This document shows, in pieces, positions 19,753-39,481 of a stretch of DNA of 64,000 nt; positions within the stretch are counted from its first letter, which is position 1; the number at the start of each line of letters is the position of its first letter. Both the position numbers and the translations under genes were made by a program. The DNA comes from Ceratorhiza oryzae-sativae. Taxonomy: Eukaryota; Basidiomycota; Agaricomycetes; Cantharellales; Ceratobasidiaceae. Under the pieces are notes generated by a model. It did not search any database, was not told where the DNA came from, and saw nothing but the letters and a program-made list of their open reading frames with translations. The stretch covers positions 992,001 to 1,056,000 of the forward strand of contig JARWMV010000238.1 of assembly GCA_030998015.1 (NCBI GenBank). The letters run 5' to 3'.

Positions 19753-20759
19753 TTAGTTTTCCAACTCCAAATCTGTTTCTTGTTTGTTAGTTTCCTTCTT
19801 GGTGCTGGCCTTTCCCACAATTTTGCCCTTGTTGTAGGTCCATCGTCCTCTGCCATCCTTCATCACATGTCCCAGCTTGCTACATTTGATGCATAGTTTC
19901 TCCTTTCTCTGTTGGTCTTTTTCCTCATTTGGTATCCTGACAGCACTGCTTGGCAAGTGACCAGTGTATGTCCCATTCTGCCCTGTTTGGACCTTGGCCT
20001 GAAGGGGTGTTCTGCTGGCCAAGCCCCAGTTTGGGGCTCCCTGATTGGTGCTTCCTCCTGTGTTGAGCTTTCTATTGGAAAATATTAGGTCATCTGCCCT
20101 GCATGCCAGTGCAATCCATTCCTCCAGGGTCAGTTGATTTCCCACTCCATACATAGACATTCTTAGCAGTTCCTGCCTGACTTCTGGTTTCAATCCTTCT
20201 TTGAACCTGTCAATGAGTGCATCTTCATTCCAGTCTACTTCTTGTGCCAAAATGCAGAACTGGGGGCATACAATTGGGCACTCTTGATTTGGTTTAGTTT
20301 GCCTAGTTCCCAAATTGCCTTTTCTTTCTTGACATGGTCTTGGAAGTTGCTTAGGAATGCTGCCTTGAAGGCTGACCAAGACCTTAAGAATTCATGGTCC
20401 TCCTTGTTGGAGATTTTCTTTAAGAATGGCTGTGCCCAATTTGCTGCATCACCACTGCTCATGTTCATTAGGGTGATGGATATTTTCCTATTATTGTTGA
20501 AGGTTCCTTCTTCATAGTCCCCAAAGTATATTTCCATTTTGGTCAGGAATGTTTTGGCCTCCTTGCCCTTCCTCCCATTGAAGGCCTCTGGTTTCTTTGC
20601 CCATGCCTCCTTGGGGATGGTAGTGCCTGCTAGGGTAGTCTGATTCATAAAGGATGGGTTTTCTGGTTCCTTCCTTACTTGACCCACTGTTGTAGTTAAG
20701 GGCCTGACTGTGGACTCCCTTTGGAATGACCTCCTTGCAAAGGGGGTTGGGGAGGACAA
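19753..20759 (-). pseudogene. Gag core and nucleocapsid of element C
   Basis: Two overlapping frames, 20759-20235 (GRKGKEAKTFLTKMEIYFGD, DAANWAQPFLKKI, SAFKAAFLSNFQDHVKKEK) and 20379-19753 (FKEGLKPEVRQELLRMSM, EEWIALACRADDLIFS), separated by a one-base shift. The zinc knuckle reads CIKCSKLGHVMKDG: the last Cys is replaced by Gly, while element E keeps CIKCGKAGHIMRDC. RNA binding is probably lost. Confidence 0.85.
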
Positions 20760-21049
20760 TCAAGACCCTGGTTGAGTTGGAGGTTCATCCCTATCTGGTG
20801 TTTGTTGCTCTGTGGGGGGGCTTCCATCCTTAATTCATTTGCTATGTCAGTGGTTCACTGCTCAATGGCAGTGGAGATCTCCTCTAAATGGTCCAAGCAG
20901 CTGTGTGTAGACTGTATTGCTTTTGTCTGTTCTTGTATAGCTGTATTTACCTCTTGGATGGTTGAATTCCATCCCTCCATATGTCCCTCCAGGTTCTTGA
21001 TGTTTGCTTCCACATTTTGGGCTGCTTTTGCAGCAATGTATGCATTGTC

Positions 21050-21490
21050 TCATCCTCCTGCCACATTAATTTCCATTTCCTTTAGTCTCCTCTCTTGTTG
21101 TTCCAGGTCCCTCCAATTCAGCTCTGTAGCCCCAATTGCCTTCTGTATTTCATGCTGAGTGTTTTCCCTTAATGTGAGTAGTCCACCCCTTAGGGCGGTG
21201 GCAATTATTTGGACAGGGTTACTGGTTCTCCAGGGTGGGTTCCCCCCTGGTGGTTGTGATGTTGTGGTTTCTGGTGGTTCAGAAAAATACCTTGGAGTTT
21301 TGGGTTCTTCAGGATTGAGGATTTTGCCCCCCTGCTCATACATGATGCAGGTCATGTTCTCCACCTCATCTGTTGAGTCATCTGCTGGTTCCTGCTGGGA
21401 TGTTACTGGTGGTATTTGGGGAGGCCTTACCTCCTCTGGTGGCTCACTACCAATATCTCTGGGACTATGGGACATGCAGAAAATCTGCAT
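21050..21490 (-). pseudogene. Gag N-terminal region of element C
   Basis: Open from an ATG at 21490 (or MSHSPRD, five codons later). Acidic and proline-rich with VTSQQEPADDSTDEVENM, then a helical stretch (ENTQHEIQKAIGATELNW and LEQQERRLKEMEINV) likely to form a coiled coil. Separated from the core by a degraded stretch 20764-21049. Confidence 0.7.
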
Positions 21491-22184
21491 GATATGTTAG
21501 GATGTATTGTCCTTATACTCACAGCATCAGTTCTTTGTTTCTAGTACATGTTGTACTCATCTCATGTAGTTGGATTTCATGTAAATTTTAGTATGCTTCA
21601 ACTGATAAATTTAAGTATATAGTGGCTGTACTTATGTCTACATCTGGATTTGCCCCACACAACATGCTTGAGGGCAGTCTGATGTGCAATGGTGGAGTAC
21701 TTTGATGACATGATGCCATTGTGGAGCTTGCTTTGACTTGCAGTTCTGCCAATGTCTGGTGTTAAGCATTGTGCACCCAAGCAAGTGCACAAGTAATCAC
21801 ACGCAGGGGTATTTTGTAGCATATAGCCCCTTTGAGCATGAGGGGACAAAAACTGAGTGGCTGCATGAGGAAATTGATCAAATTGGAAATAATGTTATCC
21901 ATATATGGTAAATTTGAACTCTTCCTAAAGGGGAAAGTTGGAGCTAGGTAAATAACAAAAAATTGACTATATGATGTCCAGATTAGGAAGTTGCCATAAT
22001 GGGCAGTACTAGAAATTAGTCCTCAGAACCAGGCATAGTAAATTCAGTACCATGAGATTAGTATGCCCTGTACTAACTTCAGCATACTAACATATCATAC
22101 TTAATTTTTGCATGTTTTCTGTGTGTAGAGTATGGATTGGTCTCTGGGGGGTTGGTTGGAAGAATGGCACTGTCTTAGTGCAGG
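21491..22184. other. Unassigned sequence between elements C and D
   Basis: No ORF over about 80 codons and no recognised domain. It may hold the decayed 5' LTR and leader of C, but I could not find a matching copy. Ends with GCAGG next to the D LTR. Confidence 0.4.
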
Positions 22185-23486
22185 TGTTATGGGTCAGGGT
22201 ACAATTGAATATCTAGAGCTTAAGAAAATGTAGATATGTTAGTATACACTAATCGTACTCAATACTTCTTAGACTAGAGTAAGACAGCTCAAAGTAGTTG
22301 CAATGCAATCGAGTAAAACTCAAGGTAGTCTTAACCTTTCACAGTGTAAACTGACTAATTTATAGGTACAAAGAGCAAGACTACTATGGTCAGGTTCCCT
22401 TAGATATCTTAAATGTAGTTCAGCCCTAGTTGCTTGGACTAACTGATACTAATCTTAATACTAGACTTAAGCAATAGCTTATAGGATAGATAGTGGGCTG
22501 CCTAATGCATGTACTTCCTCAGCTACAGGTACTTAGATTTCCTCTAATAGCTGGTACTTAATGTGATGCTCAATCAGGCAATATTGTATCCTTATATATC
22601 TCTGTATATAAGATACAATGACTTGGACAGTATATAACTAATATGGTACTTTATTCCTCAGTACTAGTTATATAAGAAATCACACACAGACAAGAGAAAA
22701 ATAGAAAGAGAAAAGAAACCAATAACTGGTCTGGGTTGAGTAGAGGGTGGTCTGGAAGGGCCTCAGAGGAGGTTCTTTTATACCCTGAGGAGGGCATTCC
22801 AGAGCCAAATAGATACATGCATGCCAGTGTGATCATCAAAAGAGGGTACTGCTATTCTTGGGGTACACCCTAGCCCAGTGTAGGATATGAGAGTAAAGAC
22901 AGGCTGTGGATCAAAGGCATTGATGCATCTGAGACCTGCTATTGGCTTGTAGATCATATTATCATAGTATATACATGTAATGAACAGAGGCTACATCTCA
23001 GTGAGTCATAAAGTGAGTCAGAGAAGCTTCTGGATCAATTTGGAAGGCTCTCCAGACTAACTGGAGTCATTAGATCTTGATTGATGGTCCAGTAAGATTA
23101 TAATGATCTTTGGGCCATTCCGGCGCGAGGATCCGGTGGATCACGACGATCTTCGGGCAGCAGATACCGCCGAAGATTAGCTATCGATAGAGCATAAGAT
23201 CGCTTTGATAGCGTAAGCGGTTGCCGAGATATGAGCGGCGCGATGTTGTAATCAATATCTCCTGATAAGAGGAAATATTGCAACCTCTATATCTCTCTGA
23301 GTTCTTAAGATACAATCACAATAAAATATGCGTTGGAAAGAGGAGATTTTGTACTATTCAATGGAACACAAATAGTACAAATTCAGATGCATACAAATTC
23401 ATTTAATTTCAAGAAAATTACAGAGGCATTGCTTGAGGTTGGCAAAGCAGACTAAAATAATAGAAAAATATTAGTGATCCATAGCA
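22185..23486 (-). repeat. 3' LTR of element D (1302 bp)
   Basis: Plus strand TGTTATGGGTCAGGG to ...GATCCATAGCA. Same family as 36663-37965, 40021-40936, 41741-43044, 49210-50423 and 61566-62877. On the minus strand it carries GGTATAAAAGGA (promoter) and AATAAAG (polyadenylation). Confidence 0.93.
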
Positions 23487-23498
23487 TAGTCCCCCCAG
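23487..23498 (-). other. Polypurine tract of element D
   Basis: CTGGGGGGACTA on the minus strand, directly before the LTR start TGCTATGG. Confidence 0.8.
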
Positions 23499-23517
23499 TC
23501 TGGTATGTCAACTCACA

Positions 23518-23727
23518 TTAGAGAGAATCATATCCCTCATCATCAGAGCTGATGTAAATGTACTCCCTCTCTTCCAACTGGCTTGGTTCAGCTAGTTCAG
23601 AAGGAGTGGAGGCACAAGACACAGTAAAGGACTCATCATCTGACTCCTCAGCCTCAGGATCAGCTTCAGAGAGAGACAAATTGAGATGGCCCATCTTCAT
23701 TTTCAAAATGAACCCTAGGGCAACCAT
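23518..23727 (-). CDS. X4: small acidic ORF at the 3' end of element D
   Basis: 69 residues from an ATG. The C-terminal half is strongly acidic and tyrosine-rich (EADPEAEESDDESFTVS, EEREYIYISSDDEGYDSL) and ends 20 bases before the polypurine tract. It may be a separate small protein or the last exon of X3, since a GTATGC donor lies at the X3 end; the phase of that join does not work without an indel. Function unknown. Confidence 0.4.
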   Translation of the reverse strand: MVALGFILKMKMGHLNLSLSEADPEAEESDDESFTVSCASTPSELAEPSQLEEREYIYISSDDEGYDSL

Positions 23728-23808
23728 CTATCACCCCTGTATCCTTGGAGTTGGAAGACCTGTAACCCATTTGGTTAGCTGGATATGCCACTTCCATTTG
23801 CTAGGATT

Positions 23809-25330
23809 TTAAGCATACCAAGGGACAGTTTTGGGCCCTGCAGCAGCAGCCAATTGTTCCATCTTGCTTGTCAGGAACTGGTAAAACTTCTTGGAAGACA
23901 ATTGCTGCCTCAGAGTGAAGTAGACTTGCTGTTCCTTGGTTGTCAGCTTCTAACCCAAGTGTAGTAGGATCAGGCTTACCATATCATCTCCCCAAGTCTT
24001 AGGAACTCCAGACTTATTGGGCTCCAGCCATCCCTTCTTGCAGAATATAGAGTGATATAGATGGAAACAATCCTTTCCTGCAGCTATCATGGCACAAGGG
24101 AAAGGAGGGAGGACAGCTGTCTTGTCCCTACCATCATACATAGCCAGACAGTGCAGGCTGCAAACCATCTGTAAGGCCCAAATCTGCAATCGAACCACTT
24201 CAGAAATTAGGGCAGGAAGAGATTCAAAAGGATTCTGCCAGTCACAAGCAGTGAAGCCTGTTACTGGCTCTATAGGGAAGGCAATTCCAGCTTCCCTGAA
24301 GCATGCATATAGAGGTGAATCCACTGAAAAGTTATGAGACTTGTAGGCCTCTTCCAGAGTCCCATTCTGCAAGTAAGTTCCCACAGCATCTTGCACTTGG
24401 AGGAGTGCATCTACCAAGGCATGGGCTACTTGATCATGCACATACACTGGGTGACAAAAGTCTTGCAGCACTTGTGTTATGGCTCTGGGCAGTCAGGAGC
24501 AAAGGCAAAACATGACTTTTTGTATGACATATATAGGGTACCATCTAATACATATATTGCAACACTTTGTGAGAATCTGGAGTGCGTACACAGGGCACAA
24601 GGGGAGATGTGGCACAGGGGTGGTTTTTAATGTCATTGTTCCAGGCATCCCCAAGCTTAGCTGTAGTAGTAGGTATTATAGCACTGAGCCTTGCGACTGC
24701 AACTGGCATCTGGGCTTTTGTGTGCATGCCACCATTGCAGAGATATGGGCAACTGAAAGTACTGTTTTTGGGTGTTTTTGGCCAAAAAGCACCAAAATTG
24801 CCAACTTTGGGCCACCATTGCTCAATAACAGGGGCATGCACACAAAAGCTCAGATACTTGTTGAAATCTCAAAACTCAGCACTATCATGCCTACTACTAC
24901 AGCTAAGCTTGGGGACACCTGGAACAATGACCTTAAAAACCACCCCTGTGCCACATCTCCCCTCATGCACTGTGTATGCACTCCAGATGCTCACAAAGTG
25001 TTGCAATATATGTATTAGATAGTACCCTACATATGTCATACAAAAGGTTGTGCTTTGCCTTCACTCCTGACTGCCCAGAGCCATAACACAAGTGCTGCAA
25101 GACTTTTGTCACCCAGTGTACCATCCATCAGTGCCCCAGTCCTCATTGAAACTATAGTAAATTTCAATGCCATCCCTGAACTTTTGTTCCAAGATGGAAG
25201 GACTGGAGGCATATAGCCCTTCCCCCATGTGCATAGAGGCTGCCAGGCAGGCAAAGTACTTGGACAGCAGAATAGAATCTGCTACTCCCATGGCTTGCTC
25301 CTCATTGAGCATCATAGGAGGGGACTGCAT
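23809..25330 (-). pseudogene. X3: accessory gene of element D, split by a MITE
   Basis: The first frame runs 25330-25119 from an ATG in good context (CACCATGC). The second runs 24442-23809. Removing the MITE and one copy of the duplicated TA joins them exactly (EDWGTDGWYVHDQVAHALVD), giving about 281 residues with one internal TAG at LHLG-stop-KLTT. Conserved-looking stretches: ILLSKYFACLAASMHMGEGL, YLQNGTLEEAYKSHN, FTACDWQNPFESLPALI, and a lysine/glutamine-rich end (TKEQQVYFTLRQQL). A TATA box lies about 90 bases before the ATG. No family recognised. Before the MITE landed this was a single gene in the sense orientation of D, after pol. Confidence 0.65.
24445..25118. mobile_element. Foldback MITE (pogo/Tc1-like ends) in X3
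   Basis: A 674-bp palindrome with two inverted arms of about 290 bp around a ~90-bp centre. Both ends read CACTGGGTGACAAAAGTC inward and are flanked by TA (24443-24444 and 25119-25120), the target duplication of Tc1/mariner/pogo transposons. The arms differ at scattered transitions. No transposase inside. The ends differ from those of the pogo relic at 43278-45511, so that copy is not its source. The open frames inside the arms are by-products of the palindrome. Confidence 0.9.
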
Positions 25331-25417
25331 GGTGCAAGAATAGAGAGATAGTGGGTGAAAGTGCTTAAGAGCTGGTAGGGTGTTGAACCACTGAGGAGAG
25401 AGGGCTCTCAAAGGCTG

Positions 25418-25426
25418 TTTTTATAG
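25418..25426 (-). promoter_or_regulatory. TATA box before X3
   Basis: CTATAAAAA on the minus strand, about 90 bases upstream of the X3 ATG at 25330 and right after a stop in that frame, so X3 cannot be read from further upstream. Confidence 0.45.
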
Positions 25427-25528
25427 CCAAGAGACATCTTACTTTGTTCTTTTGGAATTACAGGATTGTCCCTTAAGTTCACACAGGTGGAATAGGGGAA
25501 CAATAGCATAAATTCCAAACAGAACAAA

Positions 25529-26364
25529 CTAATACATGTCATGGGTGTCCAAGATATCCCTAAGACGTCTTTGAGCAGCTCTTAGGTTCCCTACTTCTTC
25601 CACTAATTCCCTATTCAACTCCTGTACCCTACTTTCTAAGGCCAACTCTGTCACCAGAAGGTCACCAGATGACTCAGTTCCATCAGAAAGTGAGTCAGCA
25701 GGCAATTCTGGCTGGTATTCAGGAGAAGGGGAAGGAGGGTAAGCAAGTCTAAACAAGTCAACTTTAGATCTTGACTCAAAAGAAGCAAACTCACTGATAT
25801 TCAGGGAGCTCTTCTCCTGACTCATATTCCCCATCAGTAGGCTCTTCAGAGAGTATGGAAGGCTCTCTGGAAGCCTCATGGGGCTGATGTGCATAATCCC
25901 TAAACAGATCAGCTTTAGATCTTGACTCAATCAAAGTCAAGAACTTACCAGTCCATCCTCTCCAGGAACTCCTCATAGTCAACAGGGCTTATGCTCCTTG
26001 GGGGAGGCACAGGCCTTTCATCCCTCCTGCCCCATCCATGCATCAAAACCAGATCAAATGGGGTTGGCTCCAACCCTGGAGAAGGGGGAGTCAGCCATCC
26101 AATCTCAAAATGAGGACCTTGGCTGGGAGCTTCCAATGGATAAGTTGGAAGTGGAGGATAGAGTGGAGAGGGTGCTGGATTAGGATATACAGGGAGAGGC
26201 ACATCTGGTGCAGGCTTAATGCTCTCCCTTCTAGATTGTTGCCTATTCTGCCTGTTTTGAGATCACACCCTAGTGCATTCCCATCTAAGGCCCATAAAGC
26301 AATGCTCCAGGATGTCCAGATGAGTGCTGGGAGTCTGGGGACATTCAATTGAGTAGTCAGACAT
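25529..26364 (-). CDS. X2: spliced accessory gene of element D (three exons)
   Basis: Exons on the minus strand: 26364-25949, 25899-25795 and 25748-25529. Splicing gives one frame of about 246 residues with one in-frame TGA at 26265-26263 (GTG TGA TCT, readily explained by CGA decay). The N-terminus is MSDYSIECPQTPS. The middle is proline-rich (PLPVYPNPAPSPLYPPLP), then acidic (EEPTDGEYESGEELPEYQ). The C-terminus is a predicted coiled coil (ESRVQELNRELVEEVGNL) with basic ILDTHDMY nearby. Both introns are under 50 nt with consensus ends. The layout of disordered, acidic and coiled-coil parts suggests an oligomeric adaptor; the function is unknown. Confidence 0.6.
25749..25794 (-). other. X2 intron 2 (46 nt)
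   Basis: GTGAGT at 25794 to TTTAG at 25749. Shares the run TTGAGTCAAGATCTAAAG with intron 1. Joins EYQ to LAYPPSP in phase. Confidence 0.6.
25900..25948 (-). other. X2 intron 1 (49 nt)
   Basis: GTAAGT at 25948 to TTTAG at 25900, branch-like AGCTGAT near the 3' end. Without splicing the frame stops at once in the donor (TGG TAA). Joins ERMD to WDYAHQ in phase. Confidence 0.6.
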
Positions 26365-26741
26365 GTTTAGAGGGTAAACTGTGCAGTATACAGCTGTAGT
26401 ACCTTAGAGACAACACAAAAATCTTATACTGCATGTATTTCACATCCAGTTGCCAATAGGAAGCTTACTCCAAGTAAAAGAAGCTTGTAACTGGCCAAAT
26501 AGAGTGCGCTCTGCTGTTATCTGTACAGTTATCACATGCTGATCCTTCCAGATCTTTCTTATCTAGTCCTTAAACCTTACAGTTGGTGATCGGTCCAAGC
26601 AGTCAACTGAGATTACTTTGCAGTGACTCATTCAGATGATTGCTTAGGGGATCAGACAACTTTATACTTTAAATGTATATACAGAAAGTTCTGGTACAAG
26701 ACTTAAAGGGAAGATAAGGGGAAAAGGTTTCTGGATGGGGA
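26365..26741 (-). other. Upstream region of X2 and possible last exon of X1
   Basis: Contains TATAAG at 26424-26429 about 60 bases before the X2 ATG. The end nearest X1 (26741 downward) could be a 26-codon second exon of X1 if the GTAAGT at 26806 is spliced to TAG at 26742. No other ORF. Confidence 0.35.
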
Positions 26742-26802
26742 CTAGATGTGATCAATCCAAATAGATCAGTGGACTTGATAAGATGATCAGGAAAGATCTG
26801 AC

Positions 26803-27285
26803 TTACCAAGCCTGGGTAATCTTATCTACAGCTGTAGAAAAGATCCTAAGTATTGCTGTTGCTCCATCCCTTGCATTTGATCTGTCCAGAACCATAAGTA
26901 TTAAACCCAGTAAATAGGTTTTGGACTCACAGTATGGATGATCAGGCAGGATGAAAAGTTCAGAGGGCATGCCTCTGTTTCCTGGACCCCTGTAAGGACT
27001 ATACTGCCTGCAGTTCCTCACCAAGGCAATGGAGAGGATGTTGGCTGGCTTAACAGTCCAGAGGGTTTTCTGCCTGCTGAAGTATACCAGCTTATAGGGC
27101 AGAGAGATCACCACCCTGCCAGTGACAGTAATGGTGTGCTCTAGGTTGGAATACTCCATTACTACCTTTTGTCCAGGAGCAACCCATATAAAGTCTTCAC
27201 CTAAGCTGTCAAGGTAGTATAGGATGGTGATGACCATGAGTGCGATGGGGAGAGTAACAGCAACGATAATGAGGAAGTTAGCCAT
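26803..27285 (-). CDS. X1: membrane-anchored accessory protein of element D
   Basis: 160 residues starting at an ATG with strong context (CCAACCATGG). Residues 4-25 are a hydrophobic segment (FLIIVAVTLPIALMVITIL), a likely signal anchor. The rest is beta-rich and soluble-looking (IWVAPGQKVVMEYSNLEH, TVTGRVVISLPYKLVYF) with a shorter hydrophobic stretch near 128 (LLGLILMVLD). The frame ends TGG TAA inside GTAAGT, a possible donor (intron 26742-26806). It begins about 120 bases after pol ends, where retroviruses put env, but I see no fusion peptide, furin-type site or family match. A TATA-like box precedes it. Function unknown. Confidence 0.6.
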   Translation of the reverse strand: MANFLIIVAVTLPIALMVITILYYLDSLGEDFIWVAPGQKVVMEYSNLEHTITVTGRVVISLPYKLVYFSRQKTLWTVKPANILSIALVRNCRQYSPYRGPGNRGMPSELFILPDHPYCESKTYLLGLILMVLDRSNARDGATAILRIFSTAVDKITQAW

Positions 27286-27320
27286 GGTTGGTGTGGTGTT
27301 TCCAGTGGTAAATGCTAGCC

Positions 27321-27330
27321 AATTTATATC
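27321..27330 (-). promoter_or_regulatory. TATA-like box before X1
   Basis: GATATAAATT on the minus strand about 40 bases before the X1 ATG, in the short gap after the end of pol at 27405. Confidence 0.45.
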
Positions 27331-27404
27331 TACAAAATGACTTTGTCAGTAAACAAACAACAGAGAAATCATGTGTTGTTCTTGGAATGATTTTCAGGAA
27401 AGGG

Positions 27405-30400
27405 TTAAGACTTCTTAGACATCTTGAGGTGTTGCTTAAGTTCCCATTCCTTGAGAATGCTGGGAGCATTTGTCAACTGCTGCCTGGATAACCATTCATC
27501 CCATTCAGGTGGATAACCCACAAATCTTGTAAGATATCAACGCTGTTTTCTCTGTCCTTTCTTGATCATCTTTTCATCCAGAATCTCTTCCACTTCCCAT
27601 TCAGGTTCCTTGTCAAAGTCAGATCTATTCAGATGTTTCTTGGGACAGTCTGTACCATCTTTATCTCTATGATAAGGTTCCAGATGAGCTATATTAATCA
27701 CAGGGTGAATTTTGTAGCTGGCTGGAATCTTGATGCAATAAGTTACATCTGAAAGCTTCTCTAGAACTCCAAAGGGACCATCATACTTCACCTGGAGTTT
27801 TCTTCCTTTTCCCTTCTGATTTCTCAGCAGGTTCAGGGAATGTGGATTCAGCATGACCAAATCTCCTTCCTGTAGATCAAGATAACTATGGTTCTTGTTG
27901 TATTGATCCTCCATGTGAACCTGAGCCAACTTCAAGGCATCCTGAGCTTGAGAGCAAATTGCTTTCATCATCTCTTCAAAGTTCACAGCTTTAGGATCTT
28001 CTACAGAGGGTCTGGCTAAAGCTTTACCAGTAGAAGTAAGTAAATCTGAGGGTTGAAGTGGTTCAAATCCTAAAAGAAGATAAGAAGGTGTAAATCCTGT
28101 AGATGTATGCTCCATGGTGTTGCAAGCAAAGCTAAAATCATTTTGGAGGTCACTCCAATTGTCCATTGAAGGAAAGACAAAAGCTCTTAAGGCAATCTCT
28201 AAGGTTTGGTTCATAATCTCACTCTGTCCATCAGCTTGTGGGTGGTAAGCTGTAGTAAGTGATCTCTGAATTCCAACCAAAGAGGTTAAGTGTTCCCAAA
28301 GGGCTCCTGTCCATCTAGAGTCTCTGTCAGTAATAACCTGTCTTGGAAGACCATACTTAGTCCATATATGTGCATAGAATAATTTGGCAGTCTCTTCCTC
28401 ATTGATAGAAGTATTGCAAGGGATGAAGTGTGCATACTTAGTGAATTTATCAACTATAGTTAGTATGGCATTAAATCCATTGCTAAGAGGAAGATCCATT
28501 ATAAAATCCATGGTTACTACTTCAAAAGGCTGACTAGGAATTGGAATAGATTGAAGAAAACCTCTTTGTCCATGTCTTTTAGGCTTAGCCTTTTGACAAA
28601 TATCACAAGTGTGCACATATTCCTTAATGACTTGTACCATCTTAGGCCAGTAGTAGGTGGAAGCTACTTTATTGTAGGTCCTATGGCAGCCAGCATGAGC
28701 TCCTTCTTGAATAGAGTCATGTATTTCAGCTACTACTTCCTTCTGTAAGTCTTTAGGGACACACAGCTTGTAATTGTCATTTCTGCAAAAGTAAATAAGA
28801 CCATTTTCTCCAATCCTGTATTGTTTGTAGGGTGGATTTAGATGATCATACTCACCTTGCAGCTTCTTGAGTACATCAGTGAAATGGGGATCATTAGTGT
28901 ATGCTTCATAAAAGTGATTAACTTCAGATTCATTAATACTGATGTGTAGCTCATTCAAACCTGATGTAGCAAGAGAGCCATTAGCTTTATATACTTTGTT
29001 TCTTACCTTAAACCTTGTCCTAAAACCTTTGGAAGGCTTTTCTTCATTGGCTAAAGCATGCATAGTTGATTGGACTAGCAAATCGTTCTCAAAGTCTACA
29101 CCTATTTCTTGGTACAGATTCTTCAGGGCATATTCAGTGTCATTGTTAAAAGTGAGAGGGGTTGATAAGTCTGCTAAAGGTCCATCTTGTCTAGGGATCC
29201 TTCTTCTTAATCTAGAGATTGGGTCAACATTAGTATGGACTTTGCCTGCTCTATGAACTATTACTAAGTCTAGAAAGGCAGCTATTACTATGCCATAACC
29301 AGATAGCCTTCTGTTCACAGTTTGGTAAGTCTTACTCCATTTAAGGGCAGCATGATCTGACACTACTACAACTTTAGCACCTTCAAGATACATGTGGAAT
29401 TTCACTAGACCATCTCTTACACCTAGAGCTTCTCTCTCAGTGGCTGAGTACCTTGTCTCAGCTGATTTGAGGAGTCTTGACCAGTAGGCAATGACTTGCT
29501 CTATGTGTACTTCAGTTTCTTCAAAGTCTTCATTCCAAGTATCTTCATAGTCAAAAGTTTCAGTACCATCAGCCCCCCCAGTCAGGATGACCTTTGCTTT
29601 GGAGTCAGGTGTGATAAACCTGGGGACAGGTAACCCTTCTTGGTGAGCTTTCTTACATTGATCATAAACTCTAGTTCCTTTCAGGTCCTTAAGTTTCATG
29701 GTTTGAATTTGCTGTAAGATAGCAGCTATTCCAAAGTCACATGCATCAGTATAAAGCCTATAGGGCATCCCTGGTATTGGGTAAGAGAGAACTGGTGCAT
29801 TGGCTAGGACTAGCTTAGCTAGTTTGAAAGCATGGGATTCCAATTTATCCCATTTCCACTTGACACTCTTCTTTAAGAGATTAAATAATGGAGCTACTAT
29901 CCAAGTATAATATGGAATATAACTTGAAAAGTAGGTCATCATTCCTAAGAATGTTTGTAATGTAGGTATATCCTTAGGTTCCTCTAATTGTAGAACGCCT
30001 TCCACTTTCTCCTTATGGGTAGACATGCCAAGTCTGGGCACCTTTTGTCCTAAAAGGAGCAAAGATTGATATCCAAGGTGGCATTTACCAGGAGAAAGAG
30101 TCAATCCAGAGTCCGCAATGGCCTTTAATACTTTGTCTAAATGCTCACAGTGGTCTTCAAATGACTTGCTGTATATCACAATGTCATCTAAATATACTAG
30201 AGCAAATATCCATAAGAATGGGGCCAAGACATCAGTCATAACCCTTTGGAATACTGGAGGTCCATTTCTCCATCCAAAAGGCATTCTTCTGAATTGAAAG
30301 TGTCCTCTGTGACATCTAAATGCTGTCTTAGGCCTATCCTCATCCTTTATCTGGAGTTGAGTAAAGCCTGCTAGAGCATCTAGAGTACTGAGATATTGGG

Positions 30401-31821
30401 CTCCTTCAAGTGAATGAAGGATATCTTGTTGCCTAGGTAGAGGGTATTCATCTGGTATAGCTACTGCATTAAGCTTCCTGTAATCAATGCACAAGCAAGG
30501 CTTATTATTCTGCCATACTACAAGCACTGGGAAGCCCCGAGGGCTCTTAGATTCCTCAATTACACCTAAGCACAACCAATCATCTATTTGCTTGTCTATA
30601 GCAGCCTTATGTTATGACCCGCCTAGCAGACATAACCTAACAACCGAATATTGTACAGATTTATGGCATTTTTCCCGAAGCGGAACAAACCATAAACAGG
30701 ATCACATGATCTCGGCACTTACCCAACGATTAAGTGCTGGTGGTTACCCTGAACTTGCTCCAGCGTTTCTCTCCCATGTTACCTGGAGCGAGGAGCGAGT
30801 TGTCATGTGACCTTGGCGCTTACCCAACGATTAAGCGCTGGTGGTTACCCTGAACTCGCTCCAGCATTTCTCTCCCATGTTACCTGGAGCGAGGAGCGAG
30901 TTGTCACGTGACCTTGGCGCTTATCCAGCGATTAAGCGCCGGGTGCTTAAGTCCAAAAAGTCACATGACCCTCAGACCTTGCGCGGCTCTATAAGATTCG
31001 GAGCCGCACAAACTTAGGATAAACGATTACCTAAGACCTAGTACTATATAGAACCTATAACTGCTGTAGACGGCACTTAGGAAAGGGGGGCCACCGCAGC
31101 AACTGCAGTCACATGTATATAAGGGGAGTAAAGCAAGACTGGACGCCTCAGCTTGCTTTATCTCGTCAACCACCATAGACCATAGCAAACACTGTAACTA
31201 GAACGCTCAATACATACTGCATAGCACCAAACCGTCAACGCAGCCACTACTTAAGTGCTCCACAAGGGAGCCTCCAGAGGGTCACGACACCTTAGCCTCT
31301 TCACTTGGCCTATAAGGAGTTAAAGCAATTTCCTTTGCACCTTATCTGAGATTAATCTCTGCCCTGCCTGGGTAATTGCCAAGTCTGCCATCTAATCCAA
31401 AAGCTTCAAAGTTCTTCTTCACAACCTTTTGCAAGCTTTTCTTCTGATCTGGAGTCAAATTGTCTCCCCAATGTACTTCTGCCAAGAGTCTTTCCCTAGG
31501 GACTGGCTCTGGGTCAGGCAGTTCAGCAGTTTTAGGGCCTCCCTCTGGCTGCTTTGAAAGTTCAATTTCTTCAGCAGTAGGAGAAGGTACTTTGACTTCC
31601 TTCATAAGAGTATTTATTAGATGTGCCTTGGCTTCTCCTGCCTTCCTAAGTTTTTCAGGCAAATCTTTTTCTTTATCCAATGCAATCTTGGGGTCATGCA
31701 TATATCCTATGACATGTCCTTTGGGTAAATGCACTGGCCTCTGAGAAAAGTTGGTTATCTGAATAGTCTTAGTATCAGGAGTGATGATGCTGTCTGTAGT
31801 TCCATGACATCCAAGTTCCAT
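27405..31821 (-). pseudogene. Pol of element D: RT, RNase H, integrase, chromodomain-like end
   Basis: One frame over 4.4 kb, broken by the G-family solo LTR, one TAA at 31342 (INLR-stop-GAKE) and one TGA at 27537 (KQR-stop-YLTRF). RT: CLCIDYRKLNAV, LDALAGFTQL, MPFGWRNGPPVFQ, VYLDDIVIYS (YLDD). RNase H: YTDACDFGIAAIL, an insert of about 70 residues, then AETRYSATEREALGV and VSDHAALKW. Integrase: HAGCHRTYNKVASTYYW and CDICQKAK, DDE residues in TMDFIMDLP, VITDRDSRW, ADGQSEIMNQ. The tail is chromodomain-like, with YLTRFVGYPPEWDEW after the TGA. All catalytic residues are intact; a few repairs would make it whole. The RNase H insert is unusual. Confidence 0.92.
30610..31289. repeat. Solo LTR of family G inserted in D pol
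   Basis: 680 bp, ends TGTTATGACCC and GGGTCACGACA (inverted), flanked by CCTTA on both sides (30605-30609 and 31290-31294). It contains GCGC-rich subrepeats (GGTGGTTACCCTGAACT, repeated near 30740 and 30835). A degraded relative lies at 53100-53340 in the other orientation. Removing it restores AKAAIDKQIDDWLCLGVIEE in pol. Confidence 0.92.
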
Positions 31822-32683
31822 TATTACTTTCTAGACTACCTTCAATAAAACCTTCCTGCTGTCCTTCCTGGAATTCAACTAGAATAGGCACTTGTGTAAT
31901 GAATTCAGCCTTTAAAAATACATCCCTAGCTAATTTAACTGGGGTAGTACCTTCAGGCCCTTTCTTTAAGGCTTTCTTCTTAGAAGATTTTTTCCTGTGA
32001 AAGGCTCTTCTCTCTAGGTTTGTCTTGAAGTCTGGTCTAGTGTAAACTTGAAATACATTTCCAGCTTCATCCAATCTTGGTTCAGTTTCTAATTCAATTA
32101 CTTCAGCAGACCTACCAGAGTTGCCAAAGAGTATTCTGCTAGGAGAGGAAAGACGATCTAAAGAGATTCTATATTGGTTAGAAAAGTCATTACCCAGAAT
32201 GAAAGGTACTTTCATTCCTTTCACTACATAGGCTTCTACCTGCATCTTTACAGGTCCATCCTTAGTAGGGAAGGTTAAGTCTAATACTACATATCCTGTA
32301 ATACTAGTTTTACCAGTCACTTGAATAAGATTTATCTTTTGGCCAGATTTCTCTTTAGGAGGTTGTTTTAAGCTAGTCAGAAAATTATAGCTAATCAGGG
32401 TAATATCAGAGCCTGAGTCAACTGTAATTTCTGTTAAGCCTTCTTCATTCCCTACCCTAGCCATAGCTACTGTAGGTCTAGTTCCCAAGAAATGAGTTCC
32501 TGAAGGATGTTCCATCACCTTTTTAAGAGTAATAGTTTTATCCTCAGGGACTGATTTAAGGTCAAGAGGCTCATTCCTGGTAGATAATTGAATAGAAAAT
32601 GATTTGGTAGCCATTGTTTGATTTGCTAGTGCATTATAATTGTGTACTGCCTGTATATCCTGATCATCTGTATTTACTCCCAA
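31775..32683 (-). pseudogene. Protease region of element D
   Basis: 302 residues. Active site ITVDSGSDITLISYNFL near residue 110, followed by flap-like LIQVTGKTSITGYVVLDL and VKGMKVPFILGNDFSNQY. A basic stretch (RKKSSKKKALKKG) follows near 235. The frame leaves the RT frame near 31821 by a one-base shift (SNNGTWMSW against IMELGCHG). Upstream it is separated from the nucleocapsid frame by a short gap. Confidence 0.85.
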
Positions 32684-32721
32684 GTCCTCTGTCTCATTAG
32701 ATTCAGAAGGCTGGGAATTAA

Positions 32722-33243
32722 TTAAAAATCCAAGTCAGAGGAAGAGCTAGAAGAATCAGATTCTTCCTCTTGGTCTTCAAATGGCTCAGTTTCAGATGGT
32801 TCAGGATTGGAATCATTGCAGGCAGCTTCATATTCAGCATAAGCAGTTTGTTCAGCCTCAGTAGTTTCAGCAAAATAAACTTGGACATTGTTAGCATTAG
32901 ACTTATTATGCTTGCACTCCTTGTCATTGTGCATAAGACTTCCACAATGAATACAGCCTCTCATTCCTCTACCTTTAGGAGTCCCTTTCTTATGTTTGGA
33001 AACATTAGAATTGTCTGGAGGGAAGGGCCTCTTATAGCCTTTGAATTTATCAGGCTGCTTTGACTTGAACTTAGAGTTCGAAGAATTTACTGCATGAGCA
33101 CTAGCTTTGTGACCATGCTTTTTCTGATGCTTTTCAGCCTTCAAAGCTTTGATCACCTCCTTGACTGTGTCATAGGTAGCTTGGTTGTTCATATGGCAAG
33201 GCCAATCCTGCAATAAATCTTCTTGTTCCTTAATTCTAGTCAC
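32722..33243 (-). CDS. Nucleocapsid part of element D Gag
   Basis: Lys/His-rich region with one CCHC knuckle CIHCGSLMHNDKEC near residue 98 (C-x2-C-x4-H-x4-C), followed by an acidic tail (ETEPFEDQEEESDSSSSSSD). Helical start (ATYDTVKEVIKALKAEKHQK). Follows the capsid frame after a degraded 110-base junction with stops. Confidence 0.8.
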   Translation of the reverse strand: MTRIKEQEDLLQDWPCHMNNQATYDTVKEVIKALKAEKHQKKHGHKASAHAVNSSNSKFKSKQPDKFKGYKRPFPPDNSNVSKHKKGTPKGRGMRGCIHCGSLMHNDKECKHNKSNANNVQVYFAETTEAEQTAYAEYEAACNDSNPEPSETEPFEDQEEESDSSSSSSDLDF

Positions 33244-33351
33244 ATAGGTGGACCAGTCTGCAATATCCTCATGGTTGACTATAGTTCTCCATTGTGTAGG
33301 AGCTGACCTACTTCAGCAATGATAGTGAGGTCATCCCAGTCTTCAACCATG

Positions 33352-34338
33352 TCAAGCAGTTTCTTTATTGTTGCCTGAATCCTTGAACCTGGCTGCCAAA
33401 GCTTTGTTCCTAGCTTTGGTAATCCAATTAGGAGTCCAAAAGAAACTAATTAAGCAAGCTCTCATCTGATTCCAATCTGTAGACATTCTAAGCCTTTGTT
33501 CCTCATTGAACTGATACCACCATTGTTTAGCATCTCCAGTAAACCTGAATGGGATAGTCAGGGAGAGTCTGTTGTTCTCATTTAAACCCATGGCTATATA
33601 ACAACTGATTTGGTCTATCCATTGATATAGTTCATCTGGATCACCATTATACTCTGGTATCACTTCAGGCTTGAGTTTGGTTGTATTGTTACCATTTCCT
33701 CCAGCTCCTCTAGGGCCCTCTGGGCCTGTTGGACCTGGTGGACCTGGTTGACCATCTCTTCCATCCCTGCCATCCCTTCCAGGGGGACCTTGGTCTCCTG
33801 GATGTCCTGGAGGGCCTTGAATCCAAGGATAAGGACCATTAGGAGGATTTCCGGGGGGCCCTGGAGGCCCAGGTGGTCCTGGTGGTCCTGGTAGTCCTTG
33901 TGGCCTAGGAGTATTGGGTGGAATAGGTGGAATAGGAGGGACATGAGGAATATGTCCCCCTCCTTGATGAGGGTAACTTTGACCTACTGGAAGGTTAGGT
34001 GGCCCCTGTCCTCCTCCTGGAGGATTAGGTGGACCAGCACTTCCTCCTGAGAAATTCCTGCCACTAGAGGCAGGAGGTCCAGTGGGAGGAGGTCCTGGTG
34101 GCCTCCTAGGTGGAGTAGCAGCCAGACCAGAGAACCCTGGTCCTAGATTTATCACAAAGGGTTGATAAGGATCAAACCTCTGAGTTCTAAATGTTTCAGC
34201 TTCAGTAGGTCTAGAGACTTGTGGCATATGTATGCTAGCATCAGCAGGTAATTGTGACTGAGGTACTAATGGCTGGAAACCTAATAAGGTATTCCCTTCA
34301 GGACTATAAACTGGCATCTTTGAAGGATCTCCAGTCAT
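33352..34338 (-). CDS. Capsid part of element D Gag with collagen-like repeats
   Basis: ATG at 34338, but the open frame extends upstream to about 34625 through a Pro/Ser/Glu-rich stretch (TSEEDSSEEEARRPRH), so the start is not decided. Residues 148-213 (33897-33700) are Gly-X-Y triplets, about six before and thirteen after a three-triplet break, including GPPGPPGPPGPPG and GRDGRDGRDGQPG, the signature of a collagen triple helix. A capsid core follows (VIPEYNGDPDELYQWIDQI, FTGDAKQWWYQFNEEQ, FWTPNWITKARNKALAARF). A collagen-like segment in a retrotransposon Gag is unexpected; trimerisation would be the obvious role. Confidence 0.85.
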   Translation of the reverse strand: MTGDPSKMPVYSPEGNTLLGFQPLVPQSQLPADASIHMPQVSRPTEAETFRTQRFDPYQPFVINLGPGFSGLAATPPRRPPGPPPTGPPASSGRNFSGGSAGPPNPPGGGQGPPNLPVGQSYPHQGGGHIPHVPPIPPIPPNTPRPQGLPGPPGPPGPPGPPGNPPNGPYPWIQGPPGHPGDQGPPGRDGRDGRDGQPGPPGPTGPEGPRGAGGNGNNTTKLKPEVIPEYNGDPDELYQWIDQISCYIAMGLNENNRLSLTIPFRFTGDAKQWWYQFNEEQRLRMSTDWNQMRACLISFFWTPNWITKARNKALAARFKDSGNNKETA

Positions 34339-34550
34339 AGTTACAGAAGGTCCAGTAGGCTCTCTAAAACCTTCAGCCCTATGATCTTCTGTAGGCCTGC
34401 CTGCTTCAGCATCTGAAGTTCTATTAGAACTCCTATGCCTAGGTCTCCTAGCTTCTTCCTCAGAAGAGTCTTCTTCACTAGTAGTAACAATAAGGGGAAC
34501 AGCTCCTTGAGGAACAGTCCCAGAGTCATCCCTTACTGGCCTAGAAGGGG

Positions 34551-34829
34551 TTATTGGCTCCCTAGGTGGGTAAGGAGATGCTGGTCTTCCAGTATACTGT
34601 TCATGAGGTGGAAACTCTTCCTCAATAGTGACTGCATGACCTTTGCTAAGTCAACCCCTAAAGGTTCCTTTCTAATAGCATTGTCAAAGGATTGACGTCT
34701 AGCAGGTTTATTTACCAAGGGAGAGTCCTGGTCCTGATCAGTATCATCCTCATTTACTTCTCCAATAGTGGGTAAAGCTGAAGGACCAGCTTCAGTCACT
34801 TGAGCAGGAGGTAATAGAGGTTCTAGCAC
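34551..34829 (-). pseudogene. N-terminal Gag region of element D
   Basis: Acidic, Pro-rich frame (GEVNEDDTDQDQDSPLVNK) leading by a one-base shift near 34650 into KGHAVTIEEEFPPHEQYTGR and on to the capsid frame. The first codon is GTG. Probably the N-terminus of Gag rather than a separate gene. Confidence 0.6.
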
Positions 34830-34901
34830 TCTTCCTGATTGCCTAGGACCTACTCCTATGCGTCTAGGATAGTCTTTTCTCTACAGGAGTAAATGAAGTT
34901 C

Positions 34902-36140
34902 CTAGATAACTTCCAAGTAAGTAGAAGGACCTCTAACTCCCAGAATGCGAGTAGCTTCTATTTGAGACACTGATTCTGGAGTAAATAGAGCTTGTAGTCT
35001 CTTCTCACTTGGAGTCCTTATAGGAGTAATTGCACCTAAAGCTTCTGGTCTAGCTGGAGAACTAGTTACAGGGCCAAGAAGCTCTTCCTGAGCCATAGCT
35101 GAAGTAGATGCAAATCCAGAAGGTTGAATTGCAGTCATGGTAGTATCCTCAGCAGAATCATCTGCTATCCTTGTGATATCTTCCACTTCCTGCTCTTCTA
35201 TTTGAACTAGCTCCTCTCCACCACTCACTGGCTCATCTGGATCCTCCTGAACTTCTAGAGGTTTGAATTCTAGACGACCAGTAGGAGATCTAATTGAGTC
35301 AATAGTATGCTTAGGATGAGGGGCTGGAGCATATTCTGGAGTCTTGGATCTACTCTCAGAATTTTCCCACATTATTTCATTGAGCTCCCTTTGCTTCCCT
35401 TTACCAAGGTCTTGCATAGCTTGGTGTTCAATAAAGAGGTAAGCCAAAAAGCGCTCAACTTCATCCCTGAATAATACACAAGCAACTTCATGCTGTTTCT
35501 TACTGAAAGCAAAATGCTTCCTAGTTTCAGGGAATGCAGGAACATCTGGGTGAGGTATAGGATGCCTGCTCCTAACAGGGAGTAGTTGGGACTTGAAAGC
35601 AGAGAGCTTAGTCCTAAAACTCCTATGCCTGTTCAAGTCAATGAACATGACAGGTTCTCCAGATGCAGACCAAGACCATTCTGGCCTAAATGTACATAAA
35701 TAATCCAATTCTTGTAAGAGATCCTTGAAGAATTCTCTACACCCAATAGATGGATATTTAATGTGCATTACATGGGGATGAGGACGTTCATATATCTTCC
35801 TACCTACTGCTCTAACTAACCTTCTCCTCTCTGCTATCTCTGGATGCATCCTTGTTAGGTTTGTCATCCTAGTAGCAGCAGGTTGGTAAGTCAGATGCCT
35901 TTGCTCTCTAGGAGTAAGAGCAATATATGAACTAGATCCATTAGGAGGGATGGGCAAATATTGTTCATAATCTACAGTATCCTGGTGATGATAACTATAG
36001 TCTGATTGTACATGCCTACCTCCTGCATCACTTCCTACCATGGAATCTGATGCATAAGGATCTTCAGGTGGTAATGGATGGTGAGTACTGTCCCAAAAAC
36101 TTCCAGGGACATGTACAGACATATTTGAAGTACTGGCCAT
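34902..36140 (-). CDS. ORF5b: large unknown ORF upstream of Gag, element D
   Basis: 412 residues from ATG at 36140 (MASTSNMSVHVPGSFW). Regions: Pro/Tyr/Ser-rich start (STHHPLPPEDPYASDS, DYSYHHQDTVDYEQYLPIPP), a basic helical part (RMHPEIAERRRLVRAVGRKI), a compact-looking middle (GCREFFKDLLQELDYLCTF, SGEPVMFIDLNRHRSFRTKL, RDEVERFLAYLFIEHQAM), then a long acidic disordered tail (EELVQIEEQEVEDITR). Lies between ORF5a and Gag in the position where a Gag N-terminal extension or a separate leader gene would be. No zinc knuckle and no known domain seen. Intact, unlike most frames in the window. Confidence 0.65.
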   Translation of the reverse strand: MASTSNMSVHVPGSFWDSTHHPLPPEDPYASDSMVGSDAGGRHVQSDYSYHHQDTVDYEQYLPIPPNGSSSYIALTPREQRHLTYQPAATRMTNLTRMHPEIAERRRLVRAVGRKIYERPHPHVMHIKYPSIGCREFFKDLLQELDYLCTFRPEWSWSASGEPVMFIDLNRHRSFRTKLSAFKSQLLPVRSRHPIPHPDVPAFPETRKHFAFSKKQHEVACVLFRDEVERFLAYLFIEHQAMQDLGKGKQRELNEIMWENSESRSKTPEYAPAPHPKHTIDSIRSPTGRLEFKPLEVQEDPDEPVSGGEELVQIEEQEVEDITRIADDSAEDTTMTAIQPSGFASTSAMAQEELLGPVTSSPARPEALGAITPIRTPSEKRLQALFTPESVSQIEATRILGVRGPSTYLEVI

Positions 36141-36174
36141 AACAGTTCTTCTCCAATTCAAGATGAATTTGTAC

Positions 36175-36662
36175 TTAGGAATAATTTTCAAAATATGTTT
36201 CAGTTACAAATTGATAAATGGCTTGATAAACTGTATCCCAGTAGCTGGTATGGGGTGACCAGAAAGACCTAATAAATGTGTGTTGAACTTTTATTGGTTG
36301 TGGTTGATCAGGAAGATGTTGAATATAGACTTCAAATTCAAGTCCAGCACTTAGAGCACTTGATACTGAATTTATTGGAATATATGGCCTATAATTCCTA
36401 AAGGTAAATGTCAGAGTAATATGTGGGGGTGGACCACCAATACTACTATAACCTAAAACAGTAATTGTAGGGTTTGGGGCTTGAATCCAGACAGGATCTA
36501 TCTCAAGAGCCCAAGATATGTTGTTGTATTCTGTGGTAAGAAAGGTATTTCTATACACAGAGTGGTCAAAATTGAGAAATTCCGTTTTGGGCAATAGATT
36601 GACCAAAAATGGCAATGTTAGTTGATAGTTACTTGATGTAAGGACCTGGGTCGCTTCACCAA
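36175..36662 (-). CDS. ORF5a: Met-less frame starting in the 5' LTR, element D
   Basis: The frame ending at 36175 (TYFENYS) has no Met codon at all. It stays open upstream through the primer-binding site (reading NIGEATQVLTSSNYQL) and into the LTR until a TAG in CTCTAG. The protein is beta-rich (YNNISWALEIDPVWI, PHITLTFTFRNYRPYIPI, LEFEVYIQHLP). Its end overlaps the upstream extension of the ORF5b frame by 17 bases. Translation would need a non-ATG start or an exon spliced from the LTR. Alternatively it is chance. Function unknown. Confidence 0.45.
36645..36661 (-). other. Primer-binding site of element D
   Basis: TGGTGAAGCGACCCAGG on the minus strand one base after the 5' LTR. The TGG start fits the CCA end of a tRNA, and no complementary stretch is seen in the LTR. 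The tRNA is not identified. Confidence 0.65.
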
Positions 36663-37965
36663 TGTTACGGGTCAGGGTACACTTGAATATCTAGAGCTTA
36701 AGCAAATGTAGATATGTTAGTATACACTAATCGTACTCAATACTTCTTAGACTAGAGTAAGAAGGCTCAAAGTAGTTGCAATGCATCAAGTAACACTCAA
36801 GGTAGTCTTAATCTTTCACAGTGTAAACTGACTAATTTATAGGTATAAAGAGCAAGACTACTATGGTCAGGTTCCCTTAGATATCTTAAATGTAGTTCAG
36901 CCCTAGTCGCTTGGACTAACTGATACTAATCTTAATACTAGGCTTAAGCGATAGCTTATAGGATAGATGGTGGGCTGCCTAATGCGTGTACTTCCTCAGC
37001 TACAGGTACTTAGATTTCCTCTAATAGCTGGTACTTAATGTCACGCTCAATCAGGCAATATTGTATCCTTATATATCTCTGTATATAAGATACAATGACT
37101 CAGACAGTATATAACTAATATGGTACTTTATTCCTCAGTACTAGTTATATAAGAAATCACACACAGACAAGAGAAATAGAAAGAGAAAAGAAACCAATAA
37201 CCGGTCTGGGTTGAGTAGAGGGAGGTGGTCTGGAAGGGCCTCAGAGGAGGTCCTTTTATACCCTGAGGAGGGCATTCCAGAGCCAAATAGATACATGCAT
37301 GCCAGTGCGATCATCAAAAGAGGGTACTGCTATACTTGGGGTACACCCTAGCCCAGTAAGGATATGAGAGTAAAGACAGGGTGTGGATCAAAGGCATTGA
37401 TACATCTGAGACCTGCTATTGGCTTGTAGATCATATTATCATAGTATATACATGTAATAAATGGAGGCTACATCTCAGTGAGTCATAAAGTGAGTCAGAG
37501 AAGCTTCTGGATCAATTTGGAAGGCTCTCCTGACTCACTGGAGTCATTAGATCTTGATTGATGGTCCAGTAAGATTCTAATGATCTTCGGGCCATTCCGG
37601 CGCGAGGATCGGGCGGATCGCGACGATCTTCGGGAAGCAGATACCGCCGAAGATTAGCTATCGATAGAGCATAAGATCGCTTTGATAGCGTAAGCGGTTG
37701 CCGAGATATGAGCGGCGCGATGTTGTAATCAATATCTCCTGATAAGAGGAAATGTCACAACCCCTGTATCTCTCTGAGATCTTATTGTAAAAACTTAATA
37801 AAATATGCGTTGGAAAGTGGGAAATTTGTACTATTTAGTGGAATGGAAAATAGTACAATTTGGAGTGCATATAAATTCATGTATTTCACAAATTAATTAC
37901 AGAGGCATTGCTTGAGGTTGGCAGAGCAGACTAAAATAATAGAAAAATGTTAGTGATCCATAACA
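36663..37965 (-). repeat. 5' LTR of element D (1303 bp)
   Basis: TGTTACGGGTCAGGG to ...GATCCATAACA on the plus strand. TATAAAAGGA promoter at 37251-37260 and AATAAAG at 37126-37132 on the minus strand, so R spans about 100-150 bases. Retains more CpG (GGCGCGAGGATCGGGCGG near 37600) than the solo copies at 40 and 49 kb. Confidence 0.93.
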
Positions 37966-38154: not shown

Positions 38155-39481
38155 TTGTTGTACTATCACAACTGCATTCATGTACCAAACAAGCTAGAAA
38201 TCAGATGTGCAGTGATAGAAAGCCAGCATGACAATCCTGCAGCAGGGCACCTTGGGCACTTCTGGACCCTAGATCTCCTTTCAAGGGATTATTACTGGTC
38301 AGGAATGAAAAGTTCCATTGTCAAATATGTACAGGCATGTGACTTGTGTATCTGCAACAAAAATTCAAATTAGGCACCTCCAGGGTTACTACAACCAATA
38401 GAATTACCCAATAAACCCTGCAAGGAAATCACCTACAACCTGATTGTTGGGTTACTGATGTCCAAGGGATATGGCACAATACTAATGGTGGTCAACTGCC
38501 TTTCCAAGATGGTTCACTTCATACCTATGCATTCAAATGCCACCACAGTAGATGTCACAAACCTATTCATCAACTTTGTCTGGAAACTGCACAGACTTCC
38601 CTGGAAAACTATCTTGGACCACAGACCCAACTTTAATGCAAAATTCTTGCACCAAGTCTATAGTCACCTAGGAATCAAGCCACACTACTCCACAGCTTAC
38701 CAACCTCAGGTAGATGGACAAAGCAAGCACCTAAACCAGTCTGTCAAAATATATCTACATCATTATATCAATCAATGACAAACAGACCAGGTAGCTGCAC
38801 TCCCTCTAGCAGAATTTGCATATAATAATGGAAAACATTCCAGGTCTAATCACATGCTGTTCTTTGCCTGCTATGGTTACAACCCTGACTTCACAGTAGG
38901 GAATACCAGAGGAAGCAGTGTACCTCAAGCCAACAAATATGCCAAACACCTCAAGTCCATTCACAACAAGGCAAAGGCAGCACTCACAATTGCAAACTGG
39001 ACTTATACCAAGTACTATAACCAGAAACATGGCAAGGCACCCAAAATTGATGAAGGCCCAAAAGCTTTCCTTGACAGCTCTAATATTAAAACCATACAAC
39101 CATCCAAGAAGTTGGACAATTGTTGCTTTAGTCTGTATAAGGTTATCAAGAAACTTGGGAAATATATGTACCAATTGGAATTGCCCAAATCCATGAAGGT
39201 GCATCCAGTCTTCCACACCTCACTTCTATTCCCAAAACCAGTTGACAAGTACCAAAGGGAGCCAGCACCAGTGCCCACAGTTGTAACTCCTGAGGGTGAA
39301 GAGGAGTACAAAGTCAAGTGAATCCTGGACTCACACAAAGTTGGAAGACATTTTGAATACTATGTCAGTTGGAAAGGCTATGGTGCAGAAGAAAACAGTT
39401 GGGAACCCAAAGCCAATCTCAAGAATGCACCTGAAGAATTAGCCAACTTCCACCAAGACCATCCTGATGCACTGGGACCTT
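38155..39481 (+). pseudogene. Integrase with chromodomain-like tail, family A fragment
   Basis: Homologous to 7561-8994. Seen in order: YYHNCIHVPNKLEIRCAVIE, HLGHFWTLDLLSRDYYW (the Arg that is a TGA in A), CDLCICNKNSN, TILMVVNCLSKMVHFIP (a D-to-N change in VVDR), LPWKTILDHRPNFN, VDGQSKHLNQ (the catalytic E is replaced by K), the SH3-like part KKLDNCCFSLYKV, and after a stop at 39321 the tail [19 protein letters not shown]. Dead by both stops and active-site changes. The sense orientation is opposite to A. Confidence 0.88.

Follow-up and report, generated by a model that had tools for sequence, protein, structure and literature searches.

Our analysis implies that element D, a chromodomain-bearing Ty3/Gypsy family of Ceratorhiza oryzae-sativae, carries three sense-strand accessory genes, X1, X2 and X3, between pol and the 3' LTR, and that these probably serve the element itself; we put the probability of this reading at roughly 0.7. 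LTR retrotransposons are usually thought to need gag and pol only. In element D, selection acting on the element keeps three more genes, none of which belongs to a recognisable family. We regard them as the element's own genes because of this selection, because of their fixed place behind one type of pol and because no host source is visible. The copy described in detail lies in the window, the whole stretch of 64,000 nucleotides that was analysed, and further copies were sought in the genome (48.8 Mb in 253 contigs).

The initial annotation had described a giant Gypsy element with 1.3-kb LTRs, a polypurine tract in the right place and gag-pol in the middle, and this architecture is confirmed. 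The element is 15,781 bp long and runs on the minus strand from 37965 to 22185, which are exactly the outer ends of its LTRs (Table 1); the latter have TG...CA termini, are flanked by a 4-bp target duplication and differ from each other at 73 of 1298 aligned positions. The RT, RNase H, H2C2 and integrase domains pass the Pfam cut-offs, and the matches to protease (22.3 bits, cut-off 24.3), Gag (13.1 bits, cut-off 24.1) and collagen (17.8 bits, cut-off 27.2) stay below theirs. The chromodomain after the integrase reaches 27.5 bits (cut-off 25.1) when scored on a relative, L012, and holds a stop in the window copy. Such an order of RT, RNase H, integrase and chromodomain, between LTRs with a target duplication, is that of a Ty3/Gypsy chromovirus. 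The primer site has ten exact matches, and no tRNA gene was found at the four of them that were examined. Positions 30702-30903 of pol hold a 101-nt tandem duplication whose copies are 92% alike.

Table 1. Features of element D in the window, in the order of the element's own strand
Feature	Position	Strand	Remarks
5' LTR	36663..37965	-	1303 nt; target duplication CCTG ahead
R-U5 and leader	36141..37235	-	nearly AUG-free; 37235 is the assumed transcription start
ORF5b	36690-36175	-	ATG-less frame inside the leader
gag	32722..36140	-	single long frame, broken in the window copy; three pieces
gag piece ORF5a	36140-34902	-	N-terminal part of the long Gag
gag piece, collagen-like and Gag part	34650-33352	-	
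gag piece, CCHC part	33312-32722	-	
pol	27403..32734	-	protease, RT, RNase H, integrase, chromodomain region; frame broken in the window copy
X1	26820..27285	-	exon 1 27285-26931 (118 codons), intron 1 26930-26882, short exon 2
X1 intron 2	26806-26742	-	65 nt, behind exon 2
X2	25529..26364	-	exons 26364-25949, 25899-25795, 25748-25529
X3 (class A)	23518..25330	-	exon 1 25330-23980, interrupted by the hairpin insert
X3 introns and later exons	23979-23518	-	intron 23979-23929, exon 2 23928-23819, intron 23818-23760, exon 3 23759-23518
Hairpin insert inside X3	24443..25120	.	306-nt inverted arms, TA at both ends
3' LTR	22185..23486	-	1302 nt; G-run polypurine tract just before, target duplication CCTG after

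The substitution patterns indicate that X1, X2 and X3 are genuine genes under purifying selection. The X1 search gave 98 matching stretches in the genome, and in 26 of 30 X1 loci the end of pol lies directly upstream, always of the same pol type. Exon 1 of X1 has a dN/dS of 0.139 in 28 of the 30 loci (a frameshifted one, L031, and one at a contig edge, L032, were left out), compared to 1.16, 2.29 and 1.42 in three control readings; the ratio is 0.26 for residues 1-29 and 0.10 for the remainder, and 24 of the 28 copies have no stop in this exon. The short exon 2 contains a stop in six copies once intron 1 is removed, and the model of the X1 C-terminus is provisional. X2 encodes 246 aa in intact copies, and its dN/dS is 0.247 (controls 0.90 and 1.10) in 27 of 28 rows, L016 and L026 having been removed before alignment; its frame is intact in 13 of 28, and codon 34 is a stop in the window copy. 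X3, with a modelled protein of about 342 aa (225 + 117 residues in L074) and a further frame break in the last exon of the window copy, occurs in two classes, A and B. Its exon 1 gives a dN/dS of 0.111 in class A and 0.245 in class B (six copies each), and the control frames give 1.18, 0.83, 0.82 and 0.53 with wide intervals, the contrast being weak for class B. The initial annotation had placed the three genes after pol and had proposed conserved position and purifying selection as a check, which they pass: they are present in dozens of copies, their proteins are kept, and dN/dS lies at 0.11-0.25, with intervals that were taken over codons and ignore relatedness among copies, some of which may represent the same insertion in two haplotypes (a stop is common to L027 and L029, and L086 and L087 look alike).

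Each gene has, as had been claimed, an ATG and an upstream TATA-like box. These boxes, defined as consensus matches, are kept in 19-25 of 27 aligned copies: ATATAAAT upstream of X1 in 19, TATAAGA upstream of X2 in 23 and TATAAAA or TATAAAG upstream of X3 in 25. They lie at 27328 (X1), 26428 (X2) and 25425 (X3). Another TATA box considered for X2, at 26666, was rejected because by eye four ATGs lie between it and X2, and the box at 26428 fits better. Introns had been attributed to one of the downstream genes; exact losses in copies confirm that introns are real, but the models, which rest on the sequence and on intron-less copies, place two in each of X1, X2 and X3. Four introns are precisely absent from at least one copy each, in eight copies altogether. 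Intron 1 of X1 (49 or 48 nt) is lost base-exactly in one of 30 loci (L038) and also in L085, L086 and L087, though not in L088, these last four being further copies chosen because the X1 search hinted at intron loss. Intron 2 of X1 is missing in two of 28 copies (L015 and L035), intron 2 of X2 (46 nt; intron 1 has 49 nt) in one of 28 rows (L033; L022 is not comparable) and intron 2 of X3 in one of six class A copies (L074). This precise absence shows that transcripts of the accessory region undergo splicing and can afterwards return to reverse transcription. The losses are most simply explained if partly spliced RNA was reverse-transcribed, or if the polymerase switched between spliced and unspliced RNA templates.

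We propose that X1, X2 and X3 would each be expressed as an mRNA of its own, spliced and driven by an internal TATA-type promoter, and that the products would act in trans in the replication of the element. X1 would be a small protein anchored in a membrane, X2 an adaptor rich in proline, and X3 a helical protein whose tail is acidic. Particles would take up full-length RNAs from many copies together, the polymerase would switch templates, and recombination would make the family a single population, with two old alleles of X3 assorting with the remainder of the element. The three proteins have no recognisable function and no known domain over the Pfam cut-off. We lean towards trans-acting functions in the assembly or transport of particles, because one protein is predicted to be membrane-bound and one is proline-rich with a conserved motif, namely YPPLPTYPLE, which is kept in 23 of 28 X2 rows and which may resemble late-domain motifs. 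In foamy viruses, an internal promoter drives accessory genes located after the main genes. Element D would only work alike in its internal promoter and accessory genes; it has neither sequence similarity to these viruses nor an envelope, and no membership is claimed.

One could argue that the element acquired X1-X3 from the host by transduction and that they travel as passengers, as they have introns and promoter-like boxes like host genes do. However, transduction should be recognised by one or a few copies and a recognisable host source, and we find dozens of copies, with the genes in one place and under purifying selection. The X3 search gave 77 matching stretches in this genome, all resembling class A or B (LTRs were not verified for each) and none a host-like paralogue, and X3 relatives elsewhere also form multi-member clusters. 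Capture with passenger status is thus unlikely. The initial annotation had left the choice between captured host genes and an accessory cassette; conserved place and purifying selection favour the cassette, and the lack of a known domain and of a host-like X3 speaks against recent capture. An ancient capture from the host may nevertheless have taken place.

We also weighed the notion that X1 is envelope-like and that the element is, or formerly was, infectious, as in errantiviruses. X1 follows closely behind pol, and 28 of 28 copies keep a strongly hydrophobic segment at residues 4-22 of its protein. A fusion glycoprotein has a large ectodomain and is anchored by its C-terminus, whereas the only hydrophobic segment of X1 is small, lies at the very N-terminus and is followed by fewer than 100 residues in exon 1. 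Together with the lack of a Pfam envelope match at the cut-off, this makes the envelope reading of X1 very improbable. No relatives of X1 outside this genome were found among 83 candidates, and none among 842.

The initial annotation had also placed extra genes upstream, on the Gag side, and this part did not stand. The ORF5a search gave 107 matching stretches, mostly of 90-100% identity and with open frames of up to 1251 aa, and the frame alignment showed that in other copies ORF5a runs through the collagen-like stretch into the Gag part; it is the N-terminal portion of Gag, with a dN/dS of 0.33 in 30 copies (other frames 1.02 and 1.19). ORF5b was rejected as a gene, being without an ATG and inside a leader that almost lacks ATGs; the dN/dS of its frame, 0.42 [0.26-0.70] against 0.68 and 0.76 in the other frames, is not decisive. 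The window leader has one ATG in the 1095 nt before the Gag ATG, compared to 17.5 +/- 3.3 expected from dinucleotide shuffles (minimum 6 in 1000 shuffles); the mean across 23 copies is 2.9, and one copy has 18. Because of this shortage relative to the shuffles, it seems that the leader is kept AUG-free so that ribosomes scan to Gag. The Gag frame is open to the end of the stretch examined in two of 23 loci starting with an ATG and broken in the other 21 (within L039-L065), in some of them at common places. Since Gag is broken in most copies while X1 exon 1 is mostly stop-free, copies may spread with help in trans.

Diversity among the copies is unevenly distributed. The mean pairwise difference is mostly 0.02-0.05 across LTR, gag and pol, climbs to 0.165 where X1 begins, drops back to 0.03-0.04 between X1 and X2 and goes up again in X2 and before X3. 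The X1-X2 spacer, at 26400-26700, is conserved to the same degree as pol. A set of 15 copies compared for both genes gives a dS of 0.069 for pol and 0.398 for X1. We give hardly any credence to local hypermutation or CpG decay, without old alleles, as the source of this extra divergence. CpG-type changes do occur, also between the LTRs (21 of 46 transitions), but at third positions the X1 excess is carried by transversions (0.071 vs 0.011 in pol) and non-CpG transitions (0.146 vs 0.028), and CpG-type changes (0.015 vs 0.007) account for little of it.

The two X3 classes have a protein identity of 46-48% and occupy about 58 places, about 36 of class A and about 22 of class B as counted by eye. 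For 26 X1 loci of known X3 class (14 A, 12 B), Fst between A and B ranges from -0.10 to 0.16 (p >=0.09) in the 21 windows that cover pol, X1 and the greater part of X2; it is 0.12 and 0.44 (p <1/500) in the windows from 25635 and 25485, and the class of one locus, L021, was read from its sequence ahead of X3, so that its use in the last of these windows is circular. At the far edge of X3, classes A and B go from a difference of 0.27-0.60 inside the gene to 0.05 in the last 16 codons and 0.014 at the polypurine tract. The gag side gives Fst values of -0.03 to 0.30 in 14 windows, with a smallest p of 0.052 (13 A, 6 B), and there may be weak distant linkage of X3 class with it. Linkage itself decays quickly in the X region, where r2 is 0.19 for sites up to 15 nt apart and 0.05 for those more than 150 nt apart (26 copies; floor 0.04), or 0.26 and 0.05 with transversions only. 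In pol r2 falls to 0.11 (15 copies), and in gag linkage is longer-ranged than in the X region (0.18-0.30 up to 400 nt, 0.09 beyond). The X3 alleles A and B seem to assort independently of the neighbouring pol, X1 and X2, for which no association was shown. Such data could also be produced, without template switching, by gene conversion among copies already integrated.

The X1 diversity and the two X3 classes could have come from a mixing of once separate element families, which swapped cassettes, and not from long-kept alleles. The sharp edges of the X3 class difference, the higher dS of X1 than of pol in the same copies and the drop of diversity to 0.03 in the X1-X2 spacer are consistent with this history; the single pol type at all 26 of the 30 X1 loci where a pol end can be recognised and the absence of class association outside X3 argue against it, and we consider it possible but doubtful. 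The two accounts differ in history, and the mechanism is the same. Under the preferred reading of one recombining family, the two X3 classes could be balanced types. A bolder version, to which we ascribe a small chance, is a sexual-like, freely recombining family in which X3 would be a balanced two-type gene for recognition, exclusion or counter-defence, X1 would be kept diverse and the rarer type would gain; if true, this would be an allele-recognition system inside a transposon.

The X3 relatives found elsewhere number 17 among 1829 candidates, and all 14 with an organism name belong to Ceratobasidium (Ceratobasidiaceae). Those of Ceratobasidium AG-Ba have 336-357 aa and the GYDSL end in common with X3. 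A trans-species age of the X3 alleles was considered and dropped: a first tree had class B outside class A and the AG-Ba proteins (80/86), and in a tree without the long rows P0012 and P0015 the four groups form an unresolved star, a host-only clade not being rejected (AU p 0.19). We claim only that classes A and B are separated from each other about as deeply as from the AG-Ba forms.

ONSEN of Arabidopsis is a Copia element. Its members are described as recombining at a high rate, likened to sexual exchange and observed directly during bursts (PMC5668417); element D likewise recombines within one family, but in element D recombination is deduced from linkage decay and two deep accessory-gene alleles are present. 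Fungal chromoviruses are Ty3/Gypsy elements with a chromodomain, and a figure legend in PMC2864245 shows additional ORFs in them. Element D has the same order of RT, RNase H, integrase and chromodomain, and it differs from the elements as presented there by its 15.8 kb, a Gag of at least 1,000 aa, three accessory genes modelled as spliced and two X3 alleles. Plant LTR elements are described in which most copies have further ORFs in sense orientation downstream of pol and ahead of the 3' LTR, one of them with a membrane segment, and splicing is reported for barley Bagy2 (PMC7264820). The extra sense genes of element D stand in the same place, in most copies, and one has a membrane segment; unlike the plant cases as described there, they are three, each with introns and a TATA-like box, and no similarity was found. 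Bdelloid rotifer elements have an ORF3 after pol, of several alternative types (env-like, esterase or exonuclease), with modular exchange and a within-genome variation called mostly neutral (PMC5408684). Element D resembles them in the extra ORF after pol, the alternative types and the modular exchange, and contrasts with that description of ORF3 by proteins without a recognisable family and by clear purifying selection. Additional ORFs in LTR elements of plants, bdelloids and fungal chromoviruses are already known, as is within-family recombination from ONSEN. In the literature searched, by titles and abstract openings and with few subscription journals, we found no account of element D, of a fungal LTR element with three spliced accessory genes or of an accessory gene with two alleles. 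With its two deep, apparently assorting X3 alleles, the family offers a means of testing, in fungal genomes, whether the transposons of one family can form a recombining population with balanced alleles.

The hairpin insert in X3 of the window copy is not part of the element D family; by its look it is a Tc1/mariner-like MITE, and its arms have 40 matches in the genome. Element D itself has retroelement neighbours on both sides, a Gag-like frame at 19753-21496 on the minus strand and an integrase-like frame at 38374-39321 on the plus strand, which by eye come from other retroelements.
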